64,000 nucleotides of DNA from an uncultured Maricaulis sp. Its GTDB lineage: Bacteria > Pseudomonadota > Alphaproteobacteria > Caulobacterales > Maricaulaceae. Shown here one piece after another: positions 54,738 through 64,000 of the stretch (its first letter is position 1; every line of letters starts with the position of its first letter). The notes below the pieces were generated by a model. The model was given only the letters and a program-made list of their open reading frames with translations. It searched no databases and was not told the DNA's origin. Where the stretch lies: assembly GCF_947259345.1 (NCBI RefSeq), contig NZ_CAMYLS010000020.1, forward strand, positions 124,001-188,000, read 5' to 3'. The translations under genes were made by a program, and so were the position numbers.

Positions 54738-56555
54738 ATGCACGCTTACCGCTCCCACACCTGCGCCGAATTGCGCAAGGAACATGTTGGCCAGACGGCC
54801 CGGATTTCCGGCTGGATTCATCGCAAGCGCGATCATGGCGGTCTGCTCTTCATCGACCTGCGCGATCATTACGGTCTGACCCAGGTGGTGCTTGAGCCGG
54901 AAAGCCCGCATTTTGCGACGCTGGAGCGCCTGCGCGTCGAGAGCGTGATCACGGTGACGGGCGAGGTCATTGCGCGCTCGGCCGAGACGGTGAATGCCAA
55001 TCTGCCAACCGGGGAAGTGGAAGTGCGCCTCGCCGATCTGGCCATCCAGTCGGAAGCCGAGGAGCTGCCGCTGCCGGTCTTTGGCGAGCCGGACTGGTCG
55101 GAGGAAGTGCGTCTCAAGCACCGCTATATCGATCTGCGCCGCGAGAGCCTGCACAAGCGCATCGTGCTGCGCTCGAAGATCATCGACAGCATTCGCCGCC
55201 GCATGGTCGACGAGCAATTCGTGGAATACCAGACGCCGATCCTGACCGCGTCATCGCCGGAAGGTGCGCGTGACTTCCTGGTGCCGAGCCGTGTTCATCC
55301 GGGCAAATTCTACGCCCTGCCGCAGGCGCCGCAGCAGTTCAAACAGCTGATCATGGTCTCCGGCTTCGACCGCTATTTCCAGATCGCCCCGTGTTTCCGC
55401 GACGAAGATGCCCGCGCCGACCGTGCGCCGGGTGAATTCTACCAGCTCGACATGGAAATGAGCTTCGCCACCCAGCAGGACGTGTTCGACGTGATCGAGC
55501 CGGTCATGAAGGGCCTGTTTGACGAGTTCGCCGATGGCCGCACCGTGCCGGACGAGCCTTTCGTGCAGATCGCCTATCATGATGCGATGCGCTGGTATGG
55601 GTCCGACAAGCCGGATCTGCGCAACCCGATCAAGATGTCGGACGCGTCAGACACCTTCCGCGGTTCCGGTTTCAAGGTCTTTGCCGGCATGCTGGAGCGC
55701 AATCCGAAGGTTCAGGTCTGGGCGATCCCGGCCAAGACCGGTGGTAGCCGCGCTTTTTGTGACCGAATGAATTCCTGGGCCCAGAAAGAGGGCCAGCCCG
55801 GCATGGGCTATATCTTCTGGCGCGAGGCCGAAAACGGCCTGGAAGCGGCCGGTCCGATCGCCAAGAATATCGGCGAGGAGCGGACCGAGGCGCTGCGCAC
55901 CGAGCTGGGCCTGCAAGCCGGCGATGCCGTCTTCTTCGCCGCCGGTGATCCCAAGGAATTTGCTGGCTTTGCCGGGCGCGCCCGCGATGTCGTCGGGGCC
56001 GAGCTGGATCTTTGCGAGAAAGATACATTCCGTTTTTGCTGGATCGTCGATTTCCCGATGTATGAGTGGGATGAGGACAACAAGAAGGTCGACTTCTCGC
56101 ACAACCCGTTCTCCATGCCGCAGATCGACCCGGATGATTTCCTCAAGCTGGACGCGGGCACGGATGCCGACACGCTGCTTGGCCTGAAGGCCTTCCAGTA
56201 TGACATCGTCTGCAATGGCGTGGAGCTGTCGTCGGGTGCCGTGCGGAATCACCGTCCGGACGTGATGCTCAAGGCCTTTGCATTTGCCGGATATGATGCC
56301 GAGACGGTCGAGGAAGAGTTTGGTGGCATGCTTAATGCCTTCCGCTATGGTGCCCCGCCGCACGCGGGTATTGCGCCCGGCGTCGACCGCATCGTCATGC
56401 TGTTGGCCGGCGTCGAGAATCTCCGCGAAGTGGTGATGTTCCCGAAGGACCAGCAGGCCCGCGACTTGATGATGAATGCGCCGGCCGAGGTCGAAATGAA
56501 GCAATTGCGCGAGCTGCACATTCGCACGGTAGTGCCGGACGCCAAGAAGGGCTGA
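54738..56555 (+). CDS. aspS: Aspartyl-tRNA synthetase
   Basis: 605 residues of bacterial-type AspRS. The anticodon-binding OB fold is at about 1-110 ([21 protein letters not shown]), then class II motif 2 ([10 protein letters not shown]), the bacterial GAD insertion (about 290-420) and motif 3 ([15 protein letters not shown]). It charges tRNA-Asp and, where an AsnRS is absent, may also charge tRNA-Asn; which applies here cannot be told. It is a single gene with a terminator. Confidence 0.97.
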
Positions 56556-56639: not shown

Positions 56640-58022
56640 TCAGTGGGGTGTGTGCCCATCCGGCTCCGGCACGCTATCGGGTCCGCGATCCGGGAGGGGC
56701 GGAGGTGCTGGCGGGGCGGGTGGAACTTCGTTGCGCGGCAGAGGTCCGATCCGACGAACCGTGTTATCGTGTTCGTCAAAGACCCATACACCGTCCGTAT
56801 CCGTGTTCGGCAGATCGATAATGACAACCCCGTCGTCGGTCTCGATCCGGGCCGTGGCGCTGCCCGCAGTCCGCACAACGGTGCGGGTTCGCTCGCGCAA
56901 GGCATCTCGTGCCGCGCGGTTGGCGTCCATGGCGTCCCGGCGGGCATTTTCGATAATGCGTCGACGCTCCTCGCTGATGGCCCGGCGCTGGGTCTCGCGT
57001 TCACGCTCAATGCGCCGCAATTCGCGTTCGGCGCGGGCAATTTCGCGCATGGCGTCATTGGTCGCCTCGCGGATCGCGTCCTGGTCAAGCTCGGTCGAAT
57101 GAACCTGCAGGGCGGCCCCGATCTCGGAGAGAATCTCGATCCGGGCATTTTCAAGTGCTTGCAGTTCAATGATGCGACCGGTTCGTTCCGGTGCCGAAAA
57201 GCGCAGCGCGTAGTCGAAGCGCGCACTCTCTGACTCGAGGTGGGGCAGACTGTCACAGGTTGGCAGAGAGACTGCGCCGCCCAGATTGGTTGCTTCATCG
57301 CCGCAGGCGCCGCTGAGACTCTCCTTGCTCAGGCCGACTACGTCGTTGAACTCGGCACCTGAGAAGTTCGCCCCGACCAGAATGGCCCCCGTGAAGTCGA
57401 CATCATGGAGCTCGGCATGCTCGAAATTGGCGCCGGTGAGGTCCGCATCCTGAAAGTTTACATCGCCGCCACTCACTTCCGCGAAATTGGCGCGTCTCAA
57501 TTCGGCGCCGCGGAAAATGGTGTCGCGTAGCTCGGCGCGCAGGAAATTGACCTGGCGGAGCCGGCTCTCGGCAAACAGGGTTTCGGTCAGGGATGATCCG
57601 ATGAAGGTTACGAAGACCATCTGCGAGCCCGTGAAGTCGGTCCCGTTTAGTTCCGCAGCCGAAAAGTTCACCCGCTCGATCACCGAATTGGGCATCAGCG
57701 CGCCACTCATGTCGGCGCGGGAAAACGTCACGCCCGTGAGGCGCGCATTGACCATGATCGTGTCGCTGAAATCGGTATCGTTGAACCGGCTCTCGATCAT
57801 CGTGACCGAGGGCAGTTCGGAATCGACGAAGCTGGTGCCCTCGAAGTTTGCGCCGATGAAGACCGCGTTGGCGAGATTCTTGTCGGAGAAGTCGCACTCA
57901 TTGCATTCACCGCCGATCGCGAGACCGCGCCGCGGGTGATCATCACCCCCCGCGAAAACGGGCGAAGCCGCGGCGACGAGGAGTGCGGTGGTACAGGCGA
58001 ATGTCTTCAAACTGTTCCGCAT
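56640..58022 (-). CDS. Exported pentapeptide-repeat protein with coiled-coil tail (460 residues)
   Basis: Signal peptide (cut after VFA, about 24), then CNECDF (about 39-44) and pentapeptide repeats through about residue 230, ending in LSGACGDEATNLGGAVSLPTC. The second half is different: a long coiled coil (about 285-370, REIARAERELRRIERERETQ and more), a short beta segment (GVVIIDLPNTDTDGVW) and a Pro-rich C-terminus. This layout suggests a beta-helix head on a rod, outside the inner membrane. It is upstream of, and on the opposite strand to, aspS. Function unknown. Confidence 0.83.
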   Translation of the reverse strand: MRNSLKTFACTTALLVAAASPVFAGGDDHPRRGLAIGGECNECDFSDKNLANAVFIGANFEGTSFVDSELPSVTMIESRFNDTDFSDTIMVNARLTGVTFSRADMSGALMPNSVIERVNFSAAELNGTDFTGSQMVFVTFIGSSLTETLFAESRLRQVNFLRAELRDTIFRGAELRRANFAEVSGGDVNFQDADLTGANFEHAELHDVDFTGAILVGANFSGAEFNDVVGLSKESLSGACGDEATNLGGAVSLPTCDSLPHLESESARFDYALRFSAPERTGRIIELQALENARIEILSEIGAALQVHSTELDQDAIREATNDAMREIARAERELRRIERERETQRRAISEERRRIIENARRDAMDANRAARDALRERTRTVVRTAGSATARIETDDGVVIIDLPNTDTDGVWVFDEHDNTVRRIGPLPRNEVPPAPPAPPPLPDRGPDSVPEPDGHTPH

Positions 58023-58130
58023 GGCCTCACGGATAAGCCAGAGACCCCGGCAAATCGACTTAAATCACGGTAACCCGTAGGTATATCCTATGAGTGGTCG
58101 GCCCGGCTGGCCAGCTGTCTGAGTGGGTGT

Positions 58131-58619
58131 CTATCGGCACGCCGGGACGGTGAGCCCCCTCGGCAGCTGGGTGGACGCGTCACCGCAGGCGGATGACAAT
58201 TGGCTTTGGGTCAGCCCGCGCGCGCTACCCAATTCTGCGCCGGACAGAGTCGCGCCGTTCAGGTTTGCGCCGGCGAAGTTGGCACTGCCAAAATGGGCGC
58301 CAACGAGATTCGCGCGGGTCAGATTGGCATTGCGGAAACTGGCGCCGGTGAAGCGGCCACCGAACAAGTTGCTGATCGACAGGTCCGTGCCGTCGAAGCG
58401 GGCGTGATTCATGGTGACCAGGGCCAGATTGGCCTGGCGCAGGCGGGCGCCTGAAACGTCGATGCCGGGAAGGTCGAGATAGGCCAAATCAGCTTGGAAC
58501 AGGTTGCAGCCAGGGCAAGATTGCCCGGCCTGCACGCGGGCGATCTGTCCGGCGTCCTGGGCGGCGGCAAGATCGCTGAAACAGGCCGCGAAGGCGAGGG
58601 CAGCAAGGATGCGTATCAT
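58131..58619 (-). CDS. Exported pentapeptide-repeat protein, short form (162 residues)
   Basis: A signal peptide (cut after AAA, about 20) is followed by CPGCNLF (about 35), some 15 pentapeptide units, and the C-terminal cap LSSACGDASTQLPRGLTVPAC. The cap is nearly the same as in the 460-residue protein just downstream, so the two are related and probably duplicated. The ATG at 58619 has GGAG upstream; the frame is open to 58658 but the signal peptide sets the start. It is 63 bp downstream of the NrdJ-like gene and 108 bp from the next gene. Function unknown. Confidence 0.85.
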   Translation of the reverse strand: MIRILAALAFAACFSDLAAAQDAGQIARVQAGQSCPGCNLFQADLAYLDLPGIDVSGARLRQANLALVTMNHARFDGTDLSISNLFGGRFTGASFRNANLTRANLVGAHFGSANFAGANLNGATLSGAELGSARGLTQSQLSSACGDASTQLPRGLTVPACR

Positions 58620-58682
58620 TTTGGCGCTCCGGAACGGTCTCGGCGCCTTGCGTCGCAAAAGCCGTGCCGCACGCGGCCACGG

Positions 58683-61622
58683 CTAGCCGCCGGACCAGCC
58701 GCAGGCATCGCATTTCTGGCCGGTGCTCTCGTCTTCCACCACCGTGAAATGACCGCATTCGGGGCAGGGCGCGCCATTGTAGACGGAGATGTCGCGTGAG
58801 GCCGGACGGCTCCGGCGCTGATCTTCGAGCTCATAGTGACCGGATTGATCATCCTTGCCGTCTGCGGAGGCGACCTTTTTCGGGGCGTTGGCGAACATCA
58901 GGATATTGTCGGGCACCTGGCCACGCGAGAAGCCGCGTGAAATGAATTTGGCCGCGGCTTCCTGGGCCAGTTTCTCCTGCTCTACACCATGACCCAGATC
59001 ACCGGCATCCGTCTTGTCCGGCGAGATCTCGGCCAGGTCGTTCCGTCCGAGATAGGAGACTCCGAGCTCGCGGAAGAGATAGTCCAGAATCGAGGTCGCA
59101 TGCTGGATGGAGTCATTGCCCTCGACTTCGCCCGCCGGTTCGAACCGCGTGTAAACGAAGGCATCGACAAATTCCTCCAGTGGCACGCCGTATTGCAGGC
59201 CGATCGAGATCGCGATGGCGAAATTATTCATCAGGGACCGGAAAGCGGCACCTTCCTTGTGCATGTCGATGAAAATCTCGCCGAGCTCGCCATCATCGAA
59301 CTCGCCAGTATGCAGGTAGACCTTGTGGCCGCCCACGGTGGCTTTCTGGATATAGCCCTTGCGGCGGTCGGGTAGTTTGCGACGGGCAGCCGGCTTCTCG
59401 ACCACGCGCTCCACGGTGCGCTCGACAATGCGTTCGGCCGGCGGCACGTCCGCCGCATAATCACCCTTGTCGAAATCAATGGCGGGCAGGAGATCAAACA
59501 GGCCGGATGCTGTGCGTCTGATCGCGAGGTCGCGCAGGCCGAGCTCCCCTCCGAGATCAATCAGGCCGGCGACGTCATCGATGGTCGCGTCACCATCCAG
59601 CGCGATCGCGGTCCGGCAGCACCCCTCGATCTGGGCTTCGATCTCGGCCGCCATCAACATCTGGTCCTGTGGCGCGGGCGTCTCGAACACTCGCCGCGAG
59701 GTGGCAGACAGATCCGGCGCGCTCGCGAGATCGCCCGTTCCGTGGGCATGGGCGTCGGCGGCGCGAATATCGTCCTCGGTATAACCGATGGCGTGGCACA
59801 GAGAGCTGCCATGACGGGCAATTACATCACCCGTCAGTCCCAGCGCATCCCGGCAGGTCCGGTCACCCAGCGTCCAGCGATTGAGGGCGTGACGAACCGA
59901 AGCGCCTTCAGCGATCGAATCCTCGAGCCGTTCCAGTGCATCGAGCGGGACGCCGCGCGCCATCAGGTCTTCCAGGGAAATCCCGGGCGCACCGCGCAGA
60001 CTGCCATGCCCGGCGGCGTGATCCTCGGCCCGCTCGACTTCAGTTACCGTACAGCCCAGCGCCAGCAGGCCGGCGCGCGCGCAGTCGCGCAGTCGCTGTC
60101 CGCCGGCCATGTCGGCATCGCTTGTAATGGCTGCGTGAACGGGCGCTGCACCGAAGCTGTCTGAATCGAAGAGTGCGGCGATGTCGTCGTCCGGCGCGCG
60201 ACAGATCAGCGTAGGGCCCGGGCGGGCCAGCGCGGCTTTGGGCAGGAACGGGGCGGGCGTTGCCGATAACCGCTCTGCAACCAGAGCAAACGCACCCGGC
60301 AGCGAGTGGAGTGGCGGTGTATCGGACAGGCCTGGTGCAGCGGCGCCGGTCTCCATGGCGACATCCCGCAAGGTGCGCGTCGCCAGATTGGAGAGAGCCG
60401 CGAGGCTTTGACGCGCGGCTTCGTCGCCATAGGGCAGACCGGCGCTCATCAGCAGGGCGCCTACGCCAGTCAGGGCAATTGACCCCGCCGAGCTGGCGCC
60501 CTTGGGCGCGCTGAGAGTGAGAGCAATGGCCCAATAGCGGACGCAGTCGGTGAACAGGTCTGCCTGAAAGCCATGATCGCCGTCGAGGAAGGCCGGAAGG
60601 TTGATGTGGACGGTTGGGCCGGTCACGACCGGGCTGGCGTGGAAGGCGAGGCTAGGTGTTCCGAAGCTCCAGATGGTGCGGGCTATTCCGGTCCGGAAGT
60701 CGCGAGCGCGGACAGCGCCGCCATCCTGTTCGAAGGTCCAGGATTCGTCCTCCGTCACCGCCTGACTGAAGGCGCGCGGAACATGAAGCGTGGCTGGACG
60801 GGTCTCGACCGCATCCGGGATCAGAGCCGAGAGCGCGTCATCATCCGTGCCCTGGCGCGCCAGGGCAAGGGCACGCTCGACCGCCTCTTCCGGCACGCCA
60901 TCCTTCAAGGCCCGGCGCATGGCTCGGGCGAGGGCGGCATTGCGGCGCGGGTCGAAGCATTCCTCGACATCGCCCGAGCAGCGACGCACGGCTTCGCCTA
61001 TGGCTTCAAGCCGATCTCGGGTCACGCGGGCTCCAACGTCCAGAACGGACGCTCGCAGCGCGGCTTCGGCGACGCGCCGTAATTGGCCTGGCGCCTGACG
61101 CGAGTCGGCGCGGATGGTGAGTGGCGACGACGGCACTGGCGTTTCCGCGGCAGGATCGCCATAAGCCCAGTCAACCCCGCCTGTACGGATCAGGTCACTG
61201 TCCGGAACGACGAGGCGGCCGGTCAAGCTGGCCGACAATTCGGCGGCAAAGCGCTCGGCTTCGGTGTGGTCGGCGAAAGCTCCCTGGCGTGCGGCCGACC
61301 AGGCCAGTGATCCGGAGAGACGCGCAGCGACCACCGGGAGGCCATTCTCAAGTTGGCGTTCCGTGCCCTGGGCGGTCGCTGGTTGAAGCCCGCCGAACCG
61401 CTTCGCCGTATCGCGAGGCTGAGTGGTAGTTGGCCGGGGCGTGTCCAGGAGGTCGGCGAGCGCCTGCGCGGCTGTCAGACTCCAATCGGCGGGGACTGTG
61501 ATGTCACGCGCCGGCGCGGTGTCTCCGTCCAGCGAGTCGAAAGCTGACAGCCTGCGTGTTTCCGGGGCGCCGCCTGAGGCTGTCTCGGCGATGAAATCGG
61601 CAATACGACCGAAGACCTGCAT
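58683..61622 (-). CDS. NrdJ-like protein lacking catalytic motifs (degenerate class II ribonucleotide reductase)
   Basis: 979 residues. The C-terminal third is a clear TSCPD domain, [18 protein letters not shown] then [20 protein letters not shown] and [17 protein letters not shown], followed by a zinc ribbon, CPECGHF...CDACGW. This is the end of cobalamin-dependent ribonucleotide reductase NrdJ. The middle is collinear with NrdJ ([62 protein letters not shown]). The NPCSE finger loop and the PTGTI phosphate loop are absent, as is a last cysteine of the C-terminus, so it cannot be an ordinary reductase. The length is short of the usual 1,200. Role unknown. Confidence 0.75.
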
Positions 61623-61777: not shown

Positions 61778-62194
61778 ATGTTCGGACTGATCTCAAAGAT
61801 TTTTGTGTGGTGGAAAGACGCCACGCCGGGAACCTTCCTGACGCTGCGCATGCGTGGCGCCAAACAGGTCGGCTCCGATGAGTATGGCAATCGCTATTTC
61901 GAGGAATCCGGCGTGACCGGTCCCGATGGCCAGGGCCAGAAGCGTCGCTGGGTCATCTACAAGGGCTATGCCGACGCCTCTCGCGTGCCGTCCGACTGGC
62001 ATGGCTGGCTGCATCATACGTTTGATGATGTGCCCACCGAAACGCCGCTGATGCGTCAGGCCTGGGAAAAGGATCACCATCCCAATCTCACCGGTACGGT
62101 GCACGCCTATCGCCCGACCGGCTCGCTGGTGACCAGTGACCGGCGCCAGGCGACCACGGGTGATTATCAGGCCTGGTCTCCAGACGAGACCTGA
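61778..62194 (+). CDS. NDUFA12-like accessory subunit of NADH:ubiquinone oxidoreductase
   Basis: 138 residues. Family marks are FVWWKDATPGTFLTLRM at the start, GSDEYGNRYFEE near 35, RRWVIYKGYADASRVPSDWH and the later HHTFDDVPTETPL. In mitochondria this is a late-assembled subunit of complex I, and alphaproteobacteria share it. It would sit at the inner membrane. It is divergent from the NrdJ-like gene (155-bp gap) and 42 bp before the DUF2155 gene, with which it is often linked. Confidence 0.93.
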   Translation: MFGLISKIFVWWKDATPGTFLTLRMRGAKQVGSDEYGNRYFEESGVTGPDGQGQKRRWVIYKGYADASRVPSDWHGWLHHTFDDVPTETPLMRQAWEKDHHPNLTGTVHAYRPTGSLVTSDRRQATTGDYQAWSPDET

Positions 62195-62236: not shown

Positions 62237-62710
62237 ATGAAAACCAGTGTACTCGCTTCGCTTGCCGCGCTCCTGCTTGTTTCGCCCGTCTGGGCACAGG
62301 GTGACGGCGCTTCCGCCGCCGACACGTCGGATTCCTCTGAACTTCTGCGTCGGGATGATCCGGACAATACGCCTGAGCGTGGGCCGCTTTCATCCGAACC
62401 AGGCAGCACGGTCGTTCTGCGCGGCCTCGACAAGGTGACCGCCCGCACACGCGATTTCGAGATTGCGATTGGCGACACGGTCGATTTCGGCGCCCTGTCG
62501 ATTACCGCCCAATATTGCCGCAAGCGGCCGCCGGAAGAGACCCCGGAAACCTATGCCTTCCTGCAGATCAATGACCGTCGCACGGATGGATTTGGTGTCG
62601 ATGTGGAAGGCGAGCAAATCTTCTCCGGATGGATGTTTGCGTCGCGGCCGGCACAAAATCCGCTGGAGCATCCGGTCTATGATGTCTGGGTGATCGACTG
62701 TACGGCCTGA
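62237..62710 (+). CDS. DUF2155 domain-containing secreted protein
   Basis: 157 residues with a signal peptide (cut after VWA, about 20). The DUF2155 domain covers about 60-157: [39 protein letters not shown] and the end [12 protein letters not shown]. The two cysteines may form a disulfide. Function unknown. Its 3' end overlaps the 3' end of aat by 34 bp on the opposite strand. Neighbours NDUFA12-like, aat and accC form an order I associate with alphaproteobacteria. Confidence 0.9.
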
Positions 62711-63327
62711 TCGCCAGAAATCTCTTCCGGCAGGGCCTTGAAATCCGCCTCGAAAATCAAGGCATCAGACAAGCGCTGGTGGTAGCTGCTGCGGTCGATG
62801 GTGATCGCGCCGAAGCTTTCGAGGTGTTCTGTGGTGAATTGCGTATCCAGCAGGGAGAAATCGCCGGCCCGAAGCCGGGCGACGAGATGGACAAGCGCAA
62901 CTTTCGAGGCGTCGCGCCGGCGCGAGAACATGCTCTCGCCGAAGAAAGCGGCGCCCAGCGAGACGCCATAGAGGCCACCGACCAATTCCCCGGCAGCCCA
63001 ACACTCAATCGAGTGGGCGTAACCCGCCGTGTGCAGGTGGCTGTAAAGCCCTATGATTCCGTCATTGATCCAGGTCTCTTCGCGGCCGGGGGCCGGCTGG
63101 GCGCAGGCTGCGACCACGGCGGTGAAATCATGATCCACGGTGACCTTGAAGACGTCTTGGCGGACTGTTTTGCGCAGGCTGCGGGAGACGTGGAAGTCGT
63201 CGAGAGGAATAATGCCCCGCTCGTCCGGGTCGAGCAGATATATGCGCGGATCATCGCGACCCTCGGCCATCGGAAAGACGCCGCGGGCATAGCAATTGAG
63301 TAATTCCTCGGCACCGAAGCCGCGCAT
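62677..63327 (-). CDS. aat: Leucyl/phenylalanyl-tRNA-protein transferase
   Basis: 216 residues. It adds Leu or Phe to the N-terminal Arg or Lys of proteins, marking them for ClpAP (N-end rule). Visible motifs are [12 protein letters not shown] at the N-terminus, [15 protein letters not shown] near 95, [21 protein letters not shown], and [17 protein letters not shown], all family hallmarks. It lies downstream of accC by 29 bp, as in the same transcript, and its end overlaps the DUF2155 gene by 34 bp. Confidence 0.95.
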
Positions 63328-63356: not shown

Positions 63357-64000
63357 TCAGGAATCGCGGCTAGCCAACCAGTCTTCAAGCCAGCGGATGT
63401 GATAGTTTCCGCTCACGAAATCCGCTTCCTCGAGCAGTTCGAGGAAAATCGGGATCGTGGTTTCCACGCCGCCGACGACCATTTCTTCCAGCGAACGACG
63501 CAGCCGCAGGAGCGCTTCTTCGCGCGTGCGACCATGCACGATCAGCTTGCCGATCAGGCTGTCATAATATGGCGGAATTCGATAGCCGGCATAGAGGGCC
63601 GAATCGAGGCGAACGCCGAGCCCGCCCGGAGCATGAAAGTCGCTGACCGTGCCGGGCGAGGGCGCGAAGGTGCGCGCATTCTCGGCATTGATCCGGCATT
63701 CGATAGCCCAGCCTTCGAACTTTACGTCGCTCTGCTTGATATCCAGCGGCTGGCCATCGGCGACGCGAATCTGTTCGCGCACCAGATCGATACCGGTGAT
63801 CATCTCGGTAACCGGGTGTTCGACCTGCAGGCGTGTATTCATTTCGATGAAGTAGAACTCGCCATTTTCCCACAAGAATTCGATCGTGCCGACGCCGCGA
63901 TAGCCGATCGCTTCGATAGCGCGGCGGACAACATCACCGATCTTCTTGCGGTCTTCGTCATTGAGGGCCGGCGAGGGCGCTTCTTCGAGGATTTTCTGGT
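63357..64000 (-). CDS. accC: Biotin carboxylase of acetyl-CoA carboxylase, N-terminus beyond the window
   Basis: The frame is open at 64000, and 214 residues from the C-terminal side are present. The ATP-grasp motif [17 protein letters not shown], with the catalytic Glu and Arg, is followed by AIECRINAE and the C-terminal subdomain ([20 protein letters not shown]). The residues before it ([21 protein letters not shown]) continue the domain to the edge. AccC carboxylates biotin on AccB for malonyl-CoA synthesis, the precursor used by FabD. accB is expected just upstream, outside the window. Confidence 0.96.

Follow-up and report, generated by a model that had tools for sequence, protein, structure and literature searches.

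A ribonucleotide reductase gene of Maricaulis that has lost its catalytic features and kept a highly conserved TSCPD tail

The stretch of DNA analysed here (hereafter, the window) comprises 64,000 nucleotides of contig NZ_CAMYLS010000020.1 from an uncultured Maricaulis sp. (assembly GCF_947259345.1), and the gene in question, at positions 58683–61622, is a degenerate orthologue of NrdJ, the long class II ribonucleotide reductase (RNR) of alphaproteobacteria. The 979-residue open reading frame (ORF) reported in a preliminary description, made from the letters alone, is present; it is read from the minus strand with an ATG start and a stop codon inside the coordinates, and frame 1 of the plus strand contains many stops. 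The gene and its parts are as follows.

58683–61622, minus strand: degenerate NrdJ orthologue, 979 amino acids (aa), stop codon included, on the evidence of the ORF, profile match and synteny
59463–61058, minus strand: eroded reductase barrel region, residues 189–720, in which the barrel family PF02867 is no longer listed
60861–60953, minus strand: helical motif like the YebC N-domain, residues 224–254, sub-threshold in Pfam and present in intact NrdJ too
60588–60629, minus strand: 14-residue stretch, residues 332–345, with the NPCSE finger loop deleted immediately ahead of it (by alignment)
60168–60206, minus strand: 13-residue stretch, residues 473–485, in the position of the PTGTI loop (by alignment)
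59028–59390, minus strand: TSCPD domain (reported to be IscU-like), residues 745–865, under extreme constraint and with 0 cysteines
58899–58961, minus strand: residues 888–908 with an S[KR]GFxR motif, found in 39/39 degenerate copies
58686–58772, minus strand: zinc ribbon, residues 951–979, four zinc cysteines present and the redox pair absent (cysteine roles per PMC5704485)

The likeness to class II reductases was borne out by the profile search and structure prediction that the preliminary description had proposed as checks. The window protein matches the NCBIfam family NF005736 (NrdJ) with an E value of 1e-133, at 447 bits where the equivalog cut-off is 1737, and the best match in the PDB for an AlphaFold2 (AF2) model of the whole protein (mean predicted local distance difference test score, pLDDT, 70) is the NrdJ of R. 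sphaeroides, 7b9p (Foldseek E value, 4.5e-27; template modelling score by query, 0.49). The TSCPD domain (PF12637) is found by Pfam with an E value of 1.2e-11. PF02867 is unlisted for the window protein in a Pfam scan with E values up to 1, and among five other degenerate copies scanned it appears in one alone (L051), with 22.9 bits against a cut-off of 23.9. The N-terminal class II domain PF08471 stays under its cut-off in the window protein (15.4 against 27 bits) and gives zero matches across the window's own genome.

Fifty-six loci were classified as degenerate copies (n = 39) or as intact copies carrying both NPCSE and PTGTI (n = 17); three genomes of the same genus (G008, G013 and G015) stand outside this count. 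The window gene has lost what known class II reductases require. The NxCxE finger loop, said at first to be replaced by residues 332–345, is indeed missing, but those residues align with the stretch of NrdJ that follows NPCSE (..DDTACNLASLNLVKF), and the loop itself falls in a deletion. PTGTI, the loss of which had been placed at residues 473–485, aligns with PDDDI (residues 477–481) in the multiple alignment, the pairwise alignment being off by one residue. A proper alignment had been named as the check that might bring these loops back; NPCSE occurs at the aligned columns in 0/39 degenerate against 16/16 intact copies (as a motif, 0/39 against 17/17), and PTGTI in 0/39 against 17/17. Moreover, GSGTG is deleted in 39/39 degenerate copies, the barrel regions of which average 22–28% identity to intact NrdJ. 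The proposal of the preliminary description that nucleotide-sensing or nucleotide-binding parts were retained thus found no support, the GSGTG- and PTGTI-type loops being taken as such parts; the TSCPD domain and the zinc ribbon were kept.

In the tail of the window protein, the zinc cysteines C953, C956, C971 and C974 are present and both redox cysteines are absent. Four tail cysteines occur in 39/39 degenerate copies and six in 15/17 intact ones, the remaining two intact frames having no tail, and the TSCPD domain contains no cysteine in any of the 39 degenerate copies. The roles of the six tail cysteines were assigned by modelling and mutagenesis in the S. nassauensis NrdJ, where four residues were predicted to bind zinc and mutating three of them lowered the zinc content (PMC5704485). 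The RNR-like fold found by Foldseek, together with the ten cysteines that the window protein has outside its zinc ribbon, might be taken to indicate a class II reductase of an unusual type that is still active and has its radical cysteine at a new position. We give this almost no credence, as NPCSE, GSGTG and PTGTI are lost in all 39 degenerate copies, the window's own genome has no N-terminal class II domain, copies in family f2 have little barrel left and the proteins of family f87, described below, are too short to hold one.

The gene occupies a slot in the order accC–aat–DUF2155–NDUFA12–[gene]–pentapeptide genes–aspS, made up in the window of the following neighbours, for which aspS, aat and accC are presumably the right names.

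63357–63998, minus strand: accC, syntenic flank, truncated by the window end
62677–63327, minus strand: aat, syntenic flank
62237–62710, plus strand: DUF2155 protein, syntenic flank
61778–62194, plus strand: NDUFA12 family protein, syntenic upstream flank
58131–58658, minus strand: pentapeptide-repeat protein, syntenic downstream neighbour
56640–58022, minus strand: second pentapeptide-repeat protein, syntenic downstream neighbour
54738–56555, plus strand: aspS, syntenic flank

The fetched neighbourhoods of the degenerate loci contain NDUFA12 in 39/39, a pentapeptide gene in 38/39 and aspS in 31/39 cases, with the explicit gene order available for 36 of the 39, and the same three genes lie near 7, 14 and 6 of the 17 intact loci, respectively. 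Of 80 named loci, 77 carry the intact form, with NDUFA12 inside flanks of ~4 kb in 27 of the 77, for example in Iodidimonas, Parvibaculaceae and Methylobacterium. Since degenerate and intact copies share the slot, the degenerate form is an NrdJ that has stayed at its original site, and the window gene is orthologous, in place, to the long NrdJ of alphaproteobacteria; the intact loci that lie elsewhere without the usual neighbours imply that some intact copies were relocated or parted from the genes beside them. The gene had earlier been called a paralogue, which does not agree with this sharing of the slot nor with the single match to the query protein, and no second copy, in its own genome (99.97% complete). 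Two further loci may be recorded here: in G019 (L033:4505–7210), a 901-aa intact NrdJ has one usual neighbour only in its stretch and is possibly a replacement, and in G028 (L041:4780–8495), an intact-type NrdJ is broken into two frames near the zinc ribbon, either by an assembly error or by a fresh break.

The co-occurrence of the gene with a full nrdJ or nrdAB was another check suggested at the outset. Matches to the query were obtained in 59 of the 61 genomes searched (own genome included; among named records, M. maris DSM 4734 and M. salignorans are closely related), and a degenerate copy accompanies a long intact NrdJ in none of the 61. NrdA-type barrels are present in 61/61 (fragmented in G008 and G033) and strong NrdB matches in 60/61, G044 giving a weak match only, which resembles a second NrdB-like type common among these genomes. 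The barrel matches of the window's own genome are confined to one 679-aa NrdA-type frame with NrdB close by on the same contig, which is a different contig from that of the window gene. Nine genomes with degenerate copies (G003, G014, G015, G025, G037, G042, G053, G054 and G058) additionally encode a short class II protein in a frame of its own (582–828 aa).

Selection keeps the TSCPD tail, the protein sequence of which is under exceptional constraint in the degenerate copies despite the absence of catalytic features. Among the columns conserved in intact NrdJ (one residue shared by 15 or all of the 16 intact copies used, a partial sequence being omitted), the 39 degenerate copies retain 20% of 350 before the TSCPD domain, 99.5% of 56 within it and 45% of 11 after it. 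The mean identity among the 23 degenerate copies outside Maricaulis is 0.85 in TSCPD and 0.21–0.29 in the barrel segments; the corresponding values among intact copies are 0.76 (minimum 0.28, lowered by at least one outlier) and 0.54–0.67. Within Maricaulis, TSCPD is 97% identical on average against 48–70% for the regions ahead of it, so that the even conservation over almost 1,000 codons assumed in the preliminary description does not hold. The mean ratio of nonsynonymous to synonymous differences per site (pN/pS) over 16 Maricaulis copies (120 pairs) is 0.04 in TSCPD and 0.34–0.58 in the regions before it, with many comparisons close to saturation at synonymous sites. Identity between genera amounts to 87% for TSCPD, 74% for AccC and 69% for AspS, and the identity of TSCPD exceeds that of AccC in 310/310 degenerate pairs, which are not independent of one another and beside which only one intact pair is comparable.

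These data bear directly on whether the gene is a decaying pseudogene with its loss still pending, as the erosion of the barrel, the variation in length and the clean losses in 2/61 genomes described below could suggest. The frames are open, without stops, in all 39 degenerate copies read, with no frameshift inside TSCPD, and eight comparisons with the window copy gave TSCPD nonsynonymous rates (dN) of 0.007–0.024 against synonymous rates (dS) of 0.60–0.99, as expected from the purifying selection that the preliminary description had proposed to look for in relatives when it argued against a pseudogene. In view also of the conservation of TSCPD beyond that of AccC and of the retention of the same remnant in separate lineages, the pseudogene explanation is very improbable.

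In other families, the slot is occupied by remnants of smaller size, the extreme being a TSCPD-only protein. Of 144 genomes sampled evenly across the class, TSCPD is matched in 98; of the 97 besides the window's own, checked for barrels genome by genome and not per locus, 92 have an NrdJ-like barrel match (E value of 2e-101 or less) and five (f12, f26 twice, f87 and f88) have NrdA-type barrels only. NDUFA12 adjoins the TSCPD gene in all five. The TSCPD proteins of f12 and f87 are 278 and 272 aa long with no barrel remnant in either, and those of f26 and f88, counted from the first start, have 526, 533 and 663 aa and no zinc ribbon, the f88 genome carrying 10% contamination. In the order of the f87 genome, 78 genomes were searched (53 of f87 and 25 of its sister family f126). 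The TSCPD-only protein is encoded by open frames of 269–294 aa in 51/53 f87 genomes, beside NDUFA12 in the loci read, and the other two are G222, with an NDUFA12 match at a contig end, and G255, in which NDUFA12 was not found, assembly gaps being possible. All ten f87 genomes tested have NrdA-type barrels only, and 12 copies are 88% identical in the TSCPD core and 43% in the N-terminal part; the counterpart of the S[KR]GFxR motif in the TSCPD-only proteins is TSKGFVR or TSKGYIR. The genomes of this family, which is presumably SAR11-like, are 1.0–1.5 Mb in size with AT-rich genes. In f126, frames of 1196–1218 aa are found in 24/25 genomes, the remaining one being a fragment, and the four loci read have NDUFA12 adjacent and NPCSE, PTGTI and all six tail cysteines present.

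The number of inactivations was addressed with several trees. In the TSCPD-region tree (76 rows), f87 stands beside f126 with support of 96/84, apart from the copies of the window's order, and if this grouping holds, the reduction in f87 would be a separate event. This tree, in which f26 and f88 have very long branches, requires four state changes (the starred branches force three), and a single non-intact clade is weakly rejected in the approximately unbiased test (p-AU, 0.041). A tree of neighbouring genes (accC, aspS, aat and NDUFA12; 36 rows) requires three changes, and a second one (34 rows, 26 degenerate and 8 intact, three of the latter under half filled) requires four and rejects a single degenerate clade (p-AU, 2.6e-10). 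The whole-protein tree divides degenerate from intact copies on one branch, a split that could arise from shared loss of constraint, and the TSCPD-region test inside the window's order is undecided between one and more degenerate clades (p-AU, 0.54). The last two results would suit one ancient inactivation in the window's order with later re-import of intact NrdJ into the slot, in place of several losses, and the rejection by the second neighbour-gene tree, with its three poorly filled rows, would be produced by re-import as well. Nevertheless, the neighbour-gene trees need three or four changes, and intact genes are unlikely to have entered exactly this slot again and again; we therefore regard re-import as an unlikely course of events.

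Several observations weigh against the interpretation of the window gene as an in-place NrdJ orthologue with a selected tail. NDUFA12 was not found near 10/17 intact loci, and 3/17 have none of the three usual neighbours at all. The gene is cleanly lost in 2 of the 61 relatives (G026 and G038), in which NDUFA12 is followed directly by the pentapeptide genes with no space between; G026 has no TSCPD match and G038 has one within a short class II reductase elsewhere. These clean losses and the 46/144 genomes of the class without a TSCPD match indicate that the gene is not universally needed. Since TSCPD is already the best-conserved part among intact copies, part of its conservation is inherited, and since residues 189–330 are moderately conserved in Maricaulis (70%), the remainder of the protein is not free of constraint. 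Finally, an AF2 model of the isolated tail (36 rows) was poor (pLDDT, 60.8) and gave no Foldseek match at an E value of 0.001 or less, so that the IscU fold is not confirmed here. It may be added as a separate observation that the pentapeptide genes remain where the NrdJ gene is gone (L196 and L197).

Taking these points into account, we still consider it likely that an in-place NrdJ orthologue lost its reductase chemistry and that its TSCPD tail is selected for a role independent of the reductase. The presence of NrdAB could have made the reductase chemistry of NrdJ dispensable. The redox pair and the class II domain at the N terminus were lost along with the finger and PTGTI loops, the barrel is eroding, and the C-terminal TSCPD domain, in the window's order along with the zinc ribbon, would have been retained by selection for a duty that does not require the reductase. 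By extension, alphaproteobacterial NrdJ may well be bifunctional, which we favour by a small degree: TSCPD would be an autonomous factor with a reductase-independent function, and the gene would have been pared toward it in several lineages losing the catalytic half, as far as the TSCPD-only proteins of the presumably SAR11-like family.

As to what the tail does, in one intact class II reductase it is needed for the formation of tetramers and hexamers and for electron transfer (PMC5704485). In the split NrdJ of P. aeruginosa, the free tail subunit NrdJb mediates dithiol exchange and is required when the class I enzyme is blocked (PMC4520616), and the main domain of NrdJb resembles IscU and is joined by a zinc finger, the role of the IscU-like domain being described as unreported (PMC9669993). 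An electron-transfer role is excluded for the degenerate copies by the loss of the redox pair, and an electron-delivery subunit like NrdJb is ruled out by this loss together with the absence of an NrdJa-type partner in the window's own genome, where the NrdA-type frame is the only barrel, and in the ten f87 genomes; the nine genomes listed above have their short class II frame. Scaffolding of Fe-S clusters in the manner of IscU is unlikely for a TSCPD domain without cysteine. With both set aside, binding or oligomerisation remains, and the tail is probably a binding and oligomerising module, which by analogy with the tail-driven oligomers of the class II reductase mentioned above would bind a partner macromolecule and oligomerise. 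The scaffold half of the earlier "regulator or scaffold" proposal is compatible with such a role.

The module would most probably serve nucleotide metabolism as an adaptor or regulator, with NrdAB as one example of a target; the partner is the weakest step of the explanation, a link to NrdAB being doubtful. As a regulator or accessory subunit of class I NrdAB, the tail would bind NrdA or NrdB and tune the oligomeric state or the electron supply. This is suggested by the NrdA-type barrels (61/61) and strong NrdB matches (60/61) and by NrdJb, which as a separate tail subunit acts together with a reductase. However, the redox cysteines are gone in 39/39 degenerate copies, which precludes NrdJb-style electron delivery, NrdA and NrdB of the window's own genome lie on another contig, and TSCPD is unmatched in 46 of the 144 class members, the NrdAB content of which was not tabulated. 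We hence hold the regulator half of the earlier proposal, where linked to NrdAB, to be doubtful.

A joint function with the pentapeptide-repeat proteins was also considered and looks unlikely, because both proteins (56640–58658, minus strand) start in a signal-peptide-like manner on reading by eye. The motif in the barrel insert noted at residues 224–254 resembles positions 38–72 of PF20772 (YebC/TACO1 N-domain) below threshold, with a best E value of 7.4e-5 in L043; it was seen in the window protein and in L043, L048, L055, L069 and L101, which include intact and degenerate alphaproteobacterial NrdJ, and it was not shown, or the protein was too short, in 4 of the 10 other proteins scanned (TSCPD-only ones included) and in L051.

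In the literature searches made, mostly at the level of listings, we found no description of a degenerate NrdJ family or of a tail retained without its enzyme. The Caulobacter gene CCNA_01966 is called NrdJ in the literature. The C. vibrioides control genome has a TSCPD match and no PF08471 match, PF08471 being matched in 0/14 controls, so that its absence is weak evidence taken alone, but in 3/3 genomes with a long intact NrdJ. The NrdJ label of CCNA_01966 may merit checking; the gene could be either a short class II reductase or a copy of the degenerate type. More broadly, labels of "vitamin B12-dependent ribonucleotide reductase" may mislead for such genes when B12 demand or deoxynucleoside triphosphate (dNTP) supply is inferred. 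These genomes have performed a natural separation of enzyme and tail, in which the enzyme was removed and the tail was kept and is more conserved than AccC. The role of the IscU-like tail domain, unreported according to PMC9669993, can thereby be put to a direct test in Maricaulis species available in culture, for instance M. maris, which has the advantage of containing no long intact NrdJ to confound the result.

Compared with known systems, the window gene shares with the long alphaproteobacterial NrdJ (NF005736) its locus in several genera, the TSCPD domain, the zinc-ribbon cysteines and collinear barrel remnants, and differs from it in having no finger loop, PTGTI loop, N-terminal class II domain or redox pair, as reflected in its far lower profile score. 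Catalytically dead RNR large subunits are known in herpesviruses, where the RNR fold is likewise reused without catalysis; there, however, it is the barrel protein that is reused, whereas in the degenerate NrdJ conservation falls on the tail and the barrel is being eroded. With NrdJb of P. aeruginosa (PMC4520616 and PMC9669993), the TSCPD-only forms have in common a tail that exists as a separate polypeptide, but there is no second NrdJ-type barrel in the window's own genome or in the ten f87 genomes tested, and the redox cysteines are absent. The order of the zinc cysteines is the same as in the S. nassauensis NrdJ and their spacing is near-identical, whereas its redox cysteines 933 and 945 have no counterpart in the window protein. 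Collectively, dead RNR subunits (in herpesviruses) and a free tail subunit (in Pseudomonas) were already known, and what appears new, as far as the literature searches made show, is a line of NrdJ pseudoenzymes that ends elsewhere as a free tail domain.

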